Part shown: positions 15,751-20,861 of the stretch, in pieces
Numbering within the stretch: the stretch's first letter is position 1
How the letters are laid out: every line of letters begins with the position of its first letter
Assembly (NCBI RefSeq): GCF_017310505.1
Contig: NZ_CP065957.1
Coordinates: 1,674,001 to 1,738,000, forward strand
Length of the DNA: 64,000 nucleotides
Direction of reading: 5' to 3'
DNA from: Methylacidiphilum caldifontis
GTDB taxonomy: Bacteria > Verrucomicrobiota > Verrucomicrobiia > Methylacidiphilales > Methylacidiphilaceae
Made by a program: the position numbers and the translations under genes
Notes under the pieces: generated by a model
The model's input: the letters and a program-made list of their open reading frames with translations, nothing else
What the model was told of the DNA's origin: nothing
The model's database searches: none

Positions 15751-16707
15751 TTAAAGCTGCTCTTTTTTTATAAAAGCCAAAAGCTGCCTGCTCATGTATT
15801 TGATTCTGTTTAAATCTGAAAATGAAAGTCCAAAAAAAAGGGGAAGCCGGTAATGGAAAGGCAGCTTTTTTTCCAATAGATTTTTATGTTCTTTGAAGTA
15901 ATCCTCAGCTAATGAAAGATCTATAGATTTGTAGGCAAAAAGCTTTTTGAATCGGTTTTCTATGATGGCTTTTTTTCTTTCTTCGGTGAGTATTCCTTCT
16001 TTTTTTAAATATTCGATCATTTTTTCAAGTAGATTATCATGATCTCTGAGGATTTCTATAAATTGGTGATTAGCCCGGGTAGACGTATGACCTACACGGT
16101 AAATGGCTCCAGGAGTAGGGCAATAAACAAACTTCAATTTGTTGGTAATCGCTCGCATATAAAGGCTATAATCTTCACAGGGATGAAAGCTATCCCAGCC
16201 GCCGATTTTCAGAAGAGATTCTTTGCGCCATAGGTAGGATCCTGTCTGTGGCATATCCCAAGAAAGCCACAATGTTAAAGGGTCTTCTTTGGGGTCGGAA
16301 CCAAGCAGTTTTTTCTGGATGGGTTTTCCGTTTTTCCAGATTTCAACATAAGTTGGTGAGTATAAAACATCGGCAGAATCGATCTTTTCTTTGGCCTCCT
16401 CCTGTTGTGTTTTTATTTTTCCTTCCAGCAAATAATCGTCATGATCGATGTACTGAATCCATTCACCAGTCGATTCGAAAAGAATTAAATTCCGGTTGTC
16501 TGCCGTGTCTTGAGGTTTGTTAAGCCGTATAAGCTTGATTTTATCTTTGTACTGGTTCAAAATAGAAGAAGTTCCATCTGTTGACCCCGCATCAACAACA
16601 ATAATCTCTTTATTTTCCCAATCTTGACCTATAGCACTCTCTAGGGTTTGAAAGAGCCATTTTCCTGGATTATAAGTTGGAATACCAATGGTGATCTTTG
16701 GATTCAA
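15751..16707 (-). CDS. Glycosyltransferase family 2
   Basis: A 318-aa GT-A enzyme with ITIGIPTYNPGKW, VVDAGSTDGTSS and the metal-binding IDHDDY motif. It resembles the neighbouring GT2 at 16783-17715 in length and layout, including a GSYLWRKESLLKIGGWDS acceptor region, which suggests an old tandem duplication. It is separated from that paralogue by about 75 bp and convergent with the GT2 above (20 bp between stops). Likely role: extension of a surface polysaccharide. Confidence 0.85.
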   Translation of the reverse strand: MNPKITIGIPTYNPGKWLFQTLESAIGQDWENKEIIVVDAGSTDGTSSILNQYKDKIKLIRLNKPQDTADNRNLILFESTGEWIQYIDHDDYLLEGKIKTQQEEAKEKIDSADVLYSPTYVEIWKNGKPIQKKLLGSDPKEDPLTLWLSWDMPQTGSYLWRKESLLKIGGWDSFHPCEDYSLYMRAITNKLKFVYCPTPGAIYRVGHTSTRANHQFIEILRDHDNLLEKMIEYLKKEGILTEERKKAIIENRFKKLFAYKSIDLSLAEDYFKEHKNLLEKKLPFHYRLPLFFGLSFSDLNRIKYMSRQLLAFIKKEQL

Positions 16708-16782
16708 TTTTAGCTGGTTATTGTATTTTTTTTTATTTTATATTTTTTCGCTGTCAACATTTTTAGCTTGATGACCAACTGG

Positions 16783-17715
16783 TTATTTCTGTCTAAAAAT
16801 GCTTTGGATTTTTTCAGTAACAGAAAATCCAAAAAGAGAATAGAGTACACTGTATCTCAAAGGGCCATCTACACAAAAAAGACCTAATGGCTTTTGTTTT
16901 CTTTCTAGGGCGACTGCTTCCTCAATTTTTCCTTCTTTTGCAAGCCACCGGGCGACAAGAAAATAGGCTTTCCCAATTTCTTTTTTAAGTTCTGGAACCA
17001 ACTGGCCGTTTTGATTCAGCCACTGCACCATCCTGTCCATGCATCTTTTTTTTTGTTCAATAAACTCCATCGCTTGCTGATGAGCCATAGGCTTGTTCCT
17101 GTAATTCCAATATGCTCCAGCTATGGGAGTCAAAGAAAATTTTAAATTCGACTGGATTGCTCTTCCCACAAGTTCATAATCGTCATAGAGAGAGGCATAA
17201 TCCGACCATCCCCCAATTTTTGCAACCGATGTTTTTTTCCAAAGATAACCGCCTGTTTGAGGCAGTTCGGATGAAAACCACAGGGAAAGGATGGGTCTAC
17301 TCATAGCCTTGGCGGATGGCACGTATTTTTCTTTTCCTTCAGGCGAAACAGCGATGATTGGAGAATAAAATACATCAATCGTGTCAAGTTCGGCTGTCAA
17401 AGAAAAATGGTTGTTGATTTTATTCTGATCCAAATAGTCGTCGTGATCAAGCCATTGTATCCAAGAACCCTTGGCTCTATTCAATGCCTCGTTTCTAGCT
17501 TTTGCTCTCCCTTGGTTTTCTTTGAAAAAGACATGAGAAACAACTCCTCTATACTTTTCAATAATTTTAGCTGTCTGATCGGTAGAACCATCGTTAATGA
17601 CAAGAATCTCTTTGTTTGGCCATGATTGATTGAGAGCACTCAGAATGGCCTTTTCAATCGTTTTCTCCCCGTTATAGGTTATGATGGCAATAGTAACAAG
17701 GGGCAGATGATTCAT
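16783..17715 (-). CDS. Glycosyltransferase family 2
   Basis: A 310-aa GT2 enzyme, paralogous to its downstream neighbour. VTIAIITYNGEKT, VINDGSTDQT and the LDHDDY metal motif are visible, and the acceptor region again has GGYLWKKTSVAKIGGWSD. The C-terminal part contains a conserved-looking amphipathic tail (EEAVALERKQKPLGLF). ATG 17715 is preferred to the TTG at 17721. The two secreted paralogues start upstream on the same strand and could be cotranscribed (34 bp gap). Confidence 0.85.
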   Translation of the reverse strand: MNHLPLVTIAIITYNGEKTIEKAILSALNQSWPNKEILVINDGSTDQTAKIIEKYRGVVSHVFFKENQGRAKARNEALNRAKGSWIQWLDHDDYLDQNKINNHFSLTAELDTIDVFYSPIIAVSPEGKEKYVPSAKAMSRPILSLWFSSELPQTGGYLWKKTSVAKIGGWSDYASLYDDYELVGRAIQSNLKFSLTPIAGAYWNYRNKPMAHQQAMEFIEQKKRCMDRMVQWLNQNGQLVPELKKEIGKAYFLVARWLAKEGKIEEAVALERKQKPLGLFCVDGPLRYSVLYSLFGFSVTEKIQSIFRQK

Positions 17716-17748
17716 TTTCAAGAATGTAAATGAGAAAAAGGAGCCGAA

Positions 17749-18291
17749 TCAACGAGAAGACTCACTATCTTGAGAGTCTTGAGCAGGTTGGGCAGTGGAG
17801 GAAGAAGTGGATGGATTGGGTGAGGAACTTGTTTCAGCTTCAACTGCACTTGGAAGTTTGGCTGACTGGGAAAGAGATTTGAGCTCTCGCATTCGGGAGC
17901 GCATCGCATCCATTTCCTGATGCATTTCTTTTCTTTGTTCAATGAGCCGGGTAACGATGAGAGTTAAATAATCGATTTTCTTTTCTTTTGGAGCTTTTTT
18001 GAGTTCTTTTAATAATCCATCCAACTCCTTATCTTGTTTATCTAGCATCCTCCTAAAACTTTCCTGCATTTCAGAGAGCAGAGCTTGTTGGTCTGAATCT
18101 AAAGACTTTTCAGGAGAACGGCTTTTCGGAGAGTAAAGTTGTGTGGAAGATTGCCCGATGAGAGGAGAAAGGGTCCCCATAAATACTATGAGAACCCAAC
18201 GATAAAAGAGCTGTTTTTTTTTATTCCGTAGAAAAGACAAACCGTACCTATTCATGAAGAGTTTGTTAGATTGGCCCTTTATTATTCTCAT
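17749..18291 (-). CDS. Secreted coiled-coil protein A of a tandem pair, 180 aa
   Basis: I do not recognise a named family. A hydrophobic segment (about residues 28-46, WVLIVFMGTLSPLIG) indicates export or anchoring; an internal ATG (residue 13) would give a more standard signal peptide. The middle contains a helical core shared with its upstream neighbour: DKQDKELDGLLKEL, KAPKEKK, then QRKEMHQEMDAMRSRM. The C-terminus (from about 145) is Ser/Thr/Pro/Gln-rich and probably disordered. The core recalls Spy/CpxP- or CnrX-like periplasmic metal or stress sensors in its Met/charged helical character, but similarity is not established. Its start overlaps the stop of protein B (ATGA), so the two are coupled. 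Confidence 0.65.
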   Translation of the reverse strand: MRIIKGQSNKLFMNRYGLSFLRNKKKQLFYRWVLIVFMGTLSPLIGQSSTQLYSPKSRSPEKSLDSDQQALLSEMQESFRRMLDKQDKELDGLLKELKKAPKEKKIDYLTLIVTRLIEQRKEMHQEMDAMRSRMRELKSLSQSAKLPSAVEAETSSSPNPSTSSSTAQPAQDSQDSESSR

Positions 18292-18662
18292 TCATGATGT
18301 TCTTTATGATTCATCATCATTTTATGATGCATCGATTTCATCTCTTCATGCATCTGAATACGTTGATTGACCAACGTGTTCAAAAGGACTACAACTTTAT
18401 CCAATTTCTGGTCTTTGGGAGCTTTGTTCATCTCGTTAGCGAGTTTTTTTAATTCCTCATCCTGTTTATCCATGAGCCGCTGCATTTTTTCATGCATTTG
18501 CCTGGCCATCTTATGCCGATAAGCCCTGTTATGATGAGGAGGGGAAGATGAAGAAGGAACTTCTCCCTGTGACTCGGTCGTATTTTGGGCAAAAAGGGGA
18601 TTACACAGAAAACTTGCAGTAGCAAACAAAAGAACAAAGTTTTTTAACTTATTCAATTTCAC
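18288..18662 (-). CDS. Secreted Met/His-rich coiled-coil protein B of a tandem pair, 124 aa
   Basis: A clean signal peptide (residues 1-25, ending LFAQ) precedes a His/Met-rich mature protein. The core DKQDEELKKLANEM, NKAPKDQK and QRIQMHEEMKSMHHKM parallels protein A position by position. Both ends are dense in His and Met (HHNRAYRHKM near 43 and MHHKMMMNHKEHHE at the C-terminus), the composition expected of a soft-metal (copper or silver) or nickel binder. No cysteine remains in the mature part. It may act as a periplasmic metal buffer or chaperone; this is inference from composition. It is coupled to protein A by a 4-base overlap. Confidence 0.65.
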   Translation of the reverse strand: MKLNKLKNFVLLFATASFLCNPLFAQNTTESQGEVPSSSSPPHHNRAYRHKMARQMHEKMQRLMDKQDEELKKLANEMNKAPKDQKLDKVVVLLNTLVNQRIQMHEEMKSMHHKMMMNHKEHHE

Positions 18663-18786
18663 TTGTTTCCTCCATGAGATTTCTTCTTGGCAAAGTTAAA
18701 ACGAAATTATAAATAGAGTTTCTCTTTTTTAGAAAAAAAGGGCCAACCAGTCAAGTTTATCGATGTGGGAGTAGGAATAACCATCC

Positions 18787-19287
18787 CTAATTTTTTGAAA
18801 GGGTCTTTTGACGTAACTTTTCAATTTTATCGATAAACGGTTGAGGTCCTCCGGGCATGTAGCCAAAGCTGGAAATTTCTTCACCCTGTGGGGAAAGAAG
18901 AACCAAGGTGGGAAAAGAATCAACATTATATTGGTTGGCTAAATCTTCATTTTGTTTCTTTAATTCAGCGGGCTGTGTTTTATGTTGAGGAAAATCAACT
19001 TCGAGTAAAACTAGATTTTTTTGAGCATAATTTTTAAACTCGGACGTTGAGAATACTTCTTTATCTAGTTTTTGACACCAGGGACACCAGTCGGATCCTG
19101 TAAAATTCATCAATACCATCTTGTTTTCTTTTTTTGCTTCAGCGAGTGCTTGCGTATAGTTGGTTAGCCAACGGAGATTTTCAGCAGCAACAAGACAACG
19201 CAGAGGAAAAAAAACAAAAAAGAAAGCAAAGCAAAAATAAAAAATAAAAGAAAGGCGTCTGTTAAAAAAAGAAATATTGTGGATCAT
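18787..19287 (-). CDS. Secreted thioredoxin-like protein with WCPWC motif
   Basis: A 166-aa protein with a long hydrophobic N-terminus (residues 10-34) and a thioredoxin fold. The active site is SDWCPWCQKLDKEVF (C68 and C71), followed by VLLEVDFPQ and the cis-Pro loop (SFPTLVLLS). This is the pattern of thioredoxin-like proteins that reduce or transfer disulfides in the periplasm. It lies divergent to the NtrC-type regulator, with an 11-bp inverted repeat between them, and 125 bp upstream of the Met/His-rich pair on the same strand. It could serve cysteine or metal-site maintenance in the envelope. Confidence 0.85.
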   Translation of the reverse strand: MIHNISFFNRRLSFIFYFCFAFFFVFFPLRCLVAAENLRWLTNYTQALAEAKKENKMVLMNFTGSDWCPWCQKLDKEVFSTSEFKNYAQKNLVLLEVDFPQHKTQPAELKKQNEDLANQYNVDSFPTLVLLSPQGEEISSFGYMPGGPQPFIDKIEKLRQKTLSKN

Positions 19288-19314
19288 ACATCATTAATTT
19301 TAAAAGTGTTACAA

Positions 19315-19356
19315 GGAAAAATCAATTGCTCTTTCTTTTAAAAACTTGATTTTTCC
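19315..19356. repeat. Perfect 11-bp inverted repeat between divergent genes
   Basis: GGAAAAATCAA (19315-19325) is the exact reverse complement of TTGATTTTTCC (19346-19356), with a 20-bp spacer. The element lies in the 119-bp gap between the divergent thioredoxin-like gene and the NtrC-type regulator. It could be an operator or, if transcribed, a leader hairpin. Confidence 0.7.
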
Positions 19357-19406
19357 AACTCCGTTATCATTTTCATAAGTAGGAAAAACAGATAAAGAAA
19401 CTTGTA

Positions 19407-20861
19407 ATGAAAGAAAAAGCAGCTGATATTCATTCCATAGAAGAGGATTCGGTTTCCCAATCCATTCTCATCGTCGATGATGAAGAAGATGTTTATTACT
19501 CTTTTCAAAGATTTCTTGAGCAATTCCCTCTAAGGACATTTAATGCGCGGTCTGGGGAAGAGGCTTTGAAGTTTCTAAAAACTCAACCTGTAGATGTTAT
19601 TATCATGGATATCAGGATGGGGAAAAAGAATGGGTTGGAAACCTTGAAAGAAATCAGGAAACTTTTCCCCCAGCAAGTCGTGGTCATCATGACCGCATAT
19701 GGGACTTGTCAAACGGCGATTGAGGCGATGAAGTTGGGTGCCTACGATTATATATTAAAACCTTTCAATATCCAAGAGTTACAATCGATCATATATAAAG
19801 CCTTAGAAGCTTCGAAACTCACCAAAGAGGTTTCTTCTCAGATTACTGCTGCGAACTCTTTCGATAGCCGTGGCCTACAGATAATAGGGAAAAGCCAACC
19901 CATGCAGCAAGTCTATAAGCTCATTGGTCAGGTAGCGCCCACTAATGCTACAGTGTTGATTGTAGGGGAAAGCGGTTCAGGCAAAGAGCTTGTTGCAAGG
20001 GCCATTTATCAATATAGCCTTAGAGCCAACAAGCCTTTTATAGCAATAAATTGTGCAGCCATTCCTGAAAATCTTCTCGAAAGTGAACTTTTCGGTCATG
20101 AAAGAGGATCATTTACTGGGGCCATGGCTCAGCGTATCGGTAAATTTGAACAAGGGGATGGAGGAACGGTATTTTTGGATGAAATTGGGGAAATGCCGCT
20201 TTCAACTCAAGCTAAAATTCTTAGGGTGCTCCAGGAAGGTGAGTTTTCTAGACTGGGAAGCAACGAACCCATAAAAACAGATGTCCGCATTATTGCTGCA
20301 ACCAATAAAGATCTTGCAGCAGCTGTAGGGAAAAGAGAGTTTAGAGCAGATCTCTTTTACCGGCTTAATGTTGTAAAAATTACGCTTCCTCCTTTACGTG
20401 AAAGAACTGAAGATATTCCTGATCTCGTAGATCATTTTCTGGCTAAGCATCGTCGTTATCTTCCCAACGCGCCCACTTGCATTTCTTCTCAAGCAATGAA
20501 GAGCCTTATGGCTTATCATTGGCCAGGAAATATAAGAGAACTGGAAAATGTGATCCAGAGAGCTATGGTTCTGGCTTCAAGTGCCACCATCCAGAGTTGT
20601 CATCTTCCAGAAGAAATTCAAGCTTCTGAAAAAAAGAAGTGTTTCAAGGATAAGCACAGTAAGGGCAGCCTGACAGGGGGATTAGATTCCCTCATACAGG
20701 AAATGGTTTGTTCGGAACTTAAAGAAAGCCGGCTTGAAACCTTGAAAACCCTATTACATAGGATTTATACGCATGTTCTTGAAGAGTGCGAGGGGGATGA
20801 ATCCAAAGCCAAAAGAATATTAGGATTCCATCCCGGTTGGGTAAATGCCCTGAAATCCTGA
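19407..20861 (+). CDS. Sigma-54-dependent response regulator (NtrC family)
   Basis: A 484-aa transcription activator. Receiver: D24-D25 and phosphoacceptor D68 in IIMDIR, then T97 and K118. AAA+ domain: Walker A GESGSGKE (187-194), Walker B VFLDEIGE (255-262), and the sigma-54 contact loop as GSFTGA (234-239) where GAFTGA is usual. The C-terminus ends in a short Fis-type HTH (EECEGDESKAKRILGFHPGWV), which seems to lack the usual residues after the recognition helix. No histidine kinase is adjacent, so it is an orphan here. It probably activates sigma-54 promoters, perhaps of its neighbours. Confidence 0.92.
   Translation: MKEKAADIHSIEEDSVSQSILIVDDEEDVYYSFQRFLEQFPLRTFNARSGEEALKFLKTQPVDVIIMDIRMGKKNGLETLKEIRKLFPQQVVVIMTAYGTCQTAIEAMKLGAYDYILKPFNIQELQSIIYKALEASKLTKEVSSQITAANSFDSRGLQIIGKSQPMQQVYKLIGQVAPTNATVLIVGESGSGKELVARAIYQYSLRANKPFIAINCAAIPENLLESELFGHERGSFTGAMAQRIGKFEQGDGGTVFLDEIGEMPLSTQAKILRVLQEGEFSRLGSNEPIKTDVRIIAATNKDLAAAVGKREFRADLFYRLNVVKITLPPLRERTEDIPDLVDHFLAKHRRYLPNAPTCISSQAMKSLMAYHWPGNIRELENVIQRAMVLASSATIQSCHLPEEIQASEKKKCFKDKHSKGSLTGGLDSLIQEMVCSELKESRLETLKTLLHRIYTHVLEECEGDESKAKRILGFHPGWVNALKS

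Follow-up and report, generated by a model that had tools for sequence, protein, structure and literature searches.

Two adjacent minus-strand genes in the stretch of Methylacidiphilum DNA analysed here (the window, 64,000 nucleotides of a genome of 2,254,698 bases) encode a pair of predicted secreted helical proteins, A and B, whose sequences fit an origin as ancient tandem paralogues, from one duplication that would have occurred before two genera split. The pair appears to represent an unnamed family, not covered by Pfam or NCBIfam, which we class broadly and provisionally with periplasmic metal buffers. By analogy with SilE and PcoE, our leading but tentative reading is that A and B form a metal-buffer pair in the periplasm, with Cu(I) (or Ag(I)) as the most likely metal.

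The open reading frames of A and B were found at exactly the positions listed in Table 1, with A upstream of B, with four bases (ATGA) shared between the stop of A and the start of B, and with GGAGG immediately 5' of the start codon of A. Both are real genes, since dN/dS was low in six ortholog comparisons: values were ~0.08-0.10 for A and 0.10-0.27 for B (three ortholog pairs each), and purifying selection was seen in 6/6. The N-termini of both proteins resemble signal peptides, and export is predicted for each. On the minus strand, the order of genes runs from the thioredoxin-like gene through A and B to two glycosyltransferases.

Table 1. Features of the A-B locus (positions in the window)
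Feature	Position	Strand	Remarks
Protein A, His/Met-rich, predicted secreted helical hairpin	18288..18662	-	124 aa, GTG start
Protein B, ligand-poor paralogue of A, Ser/Thr/Pro-rich tail	17749..18291	-	180 aa, ATG start
A: shared core and C-terminal end, two predicted helices	18291..18530	-	helices 43-80 and 83-123, turn A81-P82
B: shared core, two predicted helices	17851..18102	-	helices 61-99 and 102-143, turn A100-P101
Secreted thioredoxin-like protein, upstream of A	18787..19287	-	CPWC, DsbH-like; under the NCBIfam DsbH cut-off
Divergent response regulator, receiver and sigma-54 activation domains	19407..20861	+	beside the thioredoxin gene

The two proteins share 34% identity and 57% positives across 106 residues (BLASTP 1e-18), with a common core of ~70 residues. 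Mature A and mature B aligned with a score of 163, compared to a maximum of 70 among 2000 shuffles of B (2000/2000 lower), and a comparison of the A profile to the B profile, made with seven A rows and seven B rows from 12 each, gave a probability of 99.0% across 67 columns. Moreover, when B was searched against its whole own genome, it matched itself, A (1.2e-15) and one chance-level sequence (0.103), with no clear third copy. The motifs that the preliminary description had picked out as common to the pair (DKQD-E/K-EL, KAPK and QR-x-x-MH-x-EM) are indeed found in both A and B, and the ends differ as it had described: the last 18 residues of A include 5 His and 5 Met, while the last 33 of B include 12 Ser, 3 Thr and 3 Pro. 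In a tree of 27 cores, the 12 A and 12 B proteins were separated by one branch (90/80), with both genera on each side, which fits a single duplication preceding the genus split; support was strong on 6 of the 24 inner branches of this tree, and its third-genus row was very long. Four residues (Q23, A37, K42 and R57, in the numbering of the first core row) were invariant in 17/17 core rows, which were selected by homology.

AlphaFold2, run on four-row alignments for A and B singly, predicted a two-helix hairpin for each protein, with the turn of both models on the conserved Ala-Pro. Confidence was high in the cores (pLDDT ~90) and low in the tails, with pTM values of 0.48 (A) and 0.41 (B). The invariant Q, A, K and R, together with the two-helix hairpin (modelled for A and B), are the characters by which we recognise the family of A, B and their Met-rich relatives. 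The best match in a VIA fold comparison with B was a designed cage, with a Z of 10.0 that lies inside the range unspecific for helices, as is expected of a hairpin. Foldseek with A yielded 192 matches at E<=10 and none at E<=0.001, and the best matches in the PDB by sequence (E 0.096 and 0.049) were to a designed protein.

In A, eight His and Met residues in the open half of the predicted hairpin (H50, H57, M64, M104, H105, M108, M111 and H112), plus M78 near the turn, were invariant in all 12 proteins from the two genera; position 60 was Met in 11/12, and positions 115 and 116 were His or Met in 10/12 each. Near the turn (65-103), every A has 1 His/Met per 39 positions, compared to 13-20 of the 42-43 positions in the open half. 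In B, by contrast, solely M56 and H105 (A numbering) were kept in 12/12, and just one of the eight open-end positions invariant in A is retained across all 12 B proteins. The B proteins of the second genus have no Met at 104, 108, 111 or 115, and have Phe/Tyr, Val/Ile or Ile at some core Met positions. By arithmetic on the hairpin, not from coordinates, a turn at 81-82 would place M60 facing M104 and H57 near M108; HxxM/MxxH spacing was weakly above that expected from composition (4/12 A proteins at p<0.05). The homology of A and B, the split common to two genera, the predicted hairpins, the signal-like N-termini and the loss of His and Met from B but not from A together support the earlier suggestion that a secreted helical protein had been duplicated and specialised.

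Searches with A matched all 13 genomes of the family, and A and B were adjacent in 12 of them, five from Methylacidiphilum and seven from a second genus, which we take to be Methylacidimicrobium. The thioredoxin gene upstream and the divergent response regulator were present in 12/12 pair-bearing genomes, across the two genera; this gene order is what was observed, and it suggests a link of both genes to the A-B pair. The two genes overlap both in the window and in Methylacidiphilum sp. Yel (L029), the one relative found when genome contigs were scanned with B alone; in the six second-genus loci measured (L040 left out), 61-190 bases lie between them if B is taken to begin at its first possible start codon. 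The thirteenth genome, from a third genus, has a single divergent copy, followed ~0.7 kb downstream by genes for DUF202 and NRAMP proteins (L037, 7874-11080), with the thioredoxin and regulator absent at 1e-5 within the 16 kb searched.

A search of 387 genomes of the phylum gave eight matches, six of the pair's own family and two from another class (G170 and G200), which were the sole matches among 193 genomes of that class. Both of these relatives are rich in Met, look exported and share the core of A and B. They matched a model built without them at E 6.3e-21 and 2.6e-10, and a profile of the two matched the B and A profiles with probabilities of 97.9% and 98.6%. Unlike A and B, they are single copies with more Met and with other neighbours; both have Met at positions 60, 64, 78, 104, 111, 115 and 116 (A numbering). 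The G200 copy directly follows, in the downstream direction, a gene for a heavy-metal-binding-domain protein, and genes for a multicopper oxidase and a cupredoxin lie ~5 kb away; the G170 copy has a ferritin-like protein and SOD close by and a P-type ATPase at a distance of ~5 kb. A weak match in a further genome (G006, E 7.6e-4) was not taken as a member, as its open reading frame looks like a generic coiled coil. Searching plasmids for A, B and the G170 protein yielded nothing at 0.01 (the G170 core gave E 6 matches only), and viral contigs gave 21 pattern matches and 0 relatives.

We compared A and B with known families and found that no curated family in Pfam or NCBIfam was above cut-off in 25 members scanned, that PHROGs gave no convincing match, and that the literature searched held no description of the pair. 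The preliminary description had held that a significant profile match to a well-characterised family such as CnrX or CpxP would speak against it, and neither gave one. For Metal_resist (PF13801, CnrX/ZraP; cut-off 29.2 bits), B scored 21.0 bits (E 0.0004) with A not listed, and 5/25 family members matched at E<=0.1; for CpxP/Spy, the LTxxQ motif was found in 0/27 proteins, and the LTXXQ family of Pfam was unlisted for A and B at E<=1. Proteins of the Metal_resist (CnrX/ZraP) type are exported, helical and linked with metals, and the subthreshold match of B is a likeness to them. However, A and B differ from this type in falling under the cut-off, in lacking LTxxQ and in giving no significant profile match, since their profiles had a probability of 0.2-1.9% with the Metal_resist-like proteins of the pair's own family (three query profiles; L073 left out). 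Metal_resist matches at E<=0.01 occur in 8/13 family genomes (5 over the cut-off) and in none of the five from Methylacidiphilum. As a separate observation, Cys-containing Metal_resist or near-Metal_resist proteins (L070-L077) occur in the seven second-genus genomes and the third-genus genome. CorA matched B at E 0.0013, and 12/25 members at E<=0.1, under cut-off, and was taken as a composition match; matches to Sdh5, spectrin, TraP and sll1863 were likewise under cut-off, lay on generic helix stretches where seen, and were also ascribed to composition.

The closest likeness by description is to SilE and PcoE, His/Met proteins that turn helical upon binding of Ag+ or Cu+, with SilE disordered before metal binding (PMC5008109). 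A and B resemble them in being small, exported and helix-compatible with conserved His and Met, and in that one A/B relative sits in a copper-type neighbourhood, but differ in the predicted hairpin of A, in the fixed core (QD-EL, AP, QR) and in the tandem ligand-poor partner. The SilE/PcoE family was unlisted in the NCBIfam and Pfam scans of the 25 members, in libraries whose coverage of SilE/PcoE is uncertain.

Based on this analogy, we propose, with some reserve, that A and B work like SilE/PcoE. A would be exported and form its hairpin alone or with B, and its ladder of His and Met at the open end, with the ragged ends, would hold, buffer or carry a soft metal ion. B has kept the structural core but lost most such residues, and would most likely pair with A (hairpin plus hairpin making a four-helix bundle) or act as a scaffold, while the upstream thioredoxin would keep thiols, or the metal, reduced. 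Metal binding itself, the choice of metal and the pairing of A with B are each parts that we infer. Histidines would be protonated in the acid surroundings in which these organisms live, which would leave Met as the main ligand, and metal binding by thioethers needs no deprotonation at low pH. We favour Cu(I) or Ag(I) because thioethers can bind without deprotonation, because relatives of the pair lie near metal genes, and because copper is needed by strain Kam1, of the same genus, the growth of which ceased in copper-free medium (PMC6688271). Also in favour of this reading are the invariant His and Met crowded at the open end, the confidently modelled hairpins, the gene order kept in 12/12 genomes, the NRAMP gene beside the third-genus copy and the COX1 gene beside the pair in the second genus. 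Several points count against it: the window itself has no gene for copper or for metal transport next to the pair; HxxM/MxxH spacing exceeds composition weakly; histidines would be protonated; relatives outside the family are limited to two, with copper-type neighbours that are partly non-adjacent; no sigma-54 site precedes the thioredoxin gene or A; and Met at core positions can in part be plain hydrophobic packing, given the Phe/Tyr, Val/Ile or Ile found at some of them in second-genus B. In a narrower version of the proposal, which strikes us as quite unlikely, the tandem pair would be obligate, with one ligand-bearing and one ligand-poor member, and would form a Cu(I)-storing four-helix bundle adapted to very low pH through Met thioethers rather than His; it would supply or protect the copper enzymes of verrucomicrobial methanotrophs.

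We considered that A and B might instead be periplasmic chaperones that protect against acid (like HdeA/HdeB, Spy or Skp), with hairpins that hold unfolded proteins and His residues that serve as pH switches. This explanation is the most credible of the alternatives, if still an unlikely one: the pair was found in one acidophile family alone, the helical hairpin is a common shape of such chaperones (with a weak Skp/OmpH-like match, 4kqt at E 2.6, among unspecific rows), and a thioredoxin neighbour suits quality control of envelope proteins. Nevertheless, a Pfam scan of A and B at E<=1 listed neither HdeA, LTXXQ nor OmpH, LTxxQ is absent from 27/27 proteins, and a chaperone function leaves unexplained why A, and the relatives that lie near metal genes, contain so much Met.

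The divergent regulator, syntenic in all 12 pair-bearing genomes, and the Metal_resist match of B (E 0.0004) would both suit a metal sensor or signalling accessory, like ZraP (of the ZraSR sigma-54 system) or CnrX, that feeds this sigma-54 regulator. We regard such a role as improbable, as the match falls short of the curated cut-off and is seen in 5/25 members at E<=0.1, profile probabilities with the family's Metal_resist-like proteins are very low, Metal_resist is not matched at E<=0.01 in any of the five Methylacidiphilum genomes, and the intergenic regions have no sigma-54 promoter. Specifically, a search for sigma-54 sites gave none ahead of the thioredoxin gene or of A, and the window holds 16 such sites, compared to 12.3 expected; a scan for sigma-70 promoters and terminators in 17600-19500 was at or under chance. 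The regulator had no DNA-binding HTH family at E<=0.001. About equally improbable, in our judgement, is that A, B and the thioredoxin provide a respiratory oxidase with copper, much as PCuAC, Sco or TlpA do. A secreted thioredoxin gene does precede A, and in 7/7 second-genus genomes (L036 9660-11501; L033-L035, L038-L040) B is followed downstream by a convergent gene for COX1 (heme-copper oxidase). However, this gene runs on the opposite strand, no COX1 was found close to the pair in the five genomes from Methylacidiphilum, and no similarity to PCuAC or Sco was listed for A or B.

If the preferred reading of A and B as a metal-buffer pair holds, it touches a subject, periplasmic copper handling at very low pH, that is hardly dealt with for these methanotrophs in the accessible portions of the literature searched. 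To judge from Kam1 (PMC6688271), methane oxidation in the verrucomicrobial methanotrophs seems to require copper. A conserved, unannotated, secreted His/Met pair, found in all genomes examined of two genera, gives laboratory work a concrete candidate, and the A/B cores can seed the alignment of a family outside Pfam and NCBIfam. We also note that the two glycosyltransferases that follow B (15751-17721) are similar to each other; in the second genus none was found near the pair, and L031 has a clear ortholog of the first alone.
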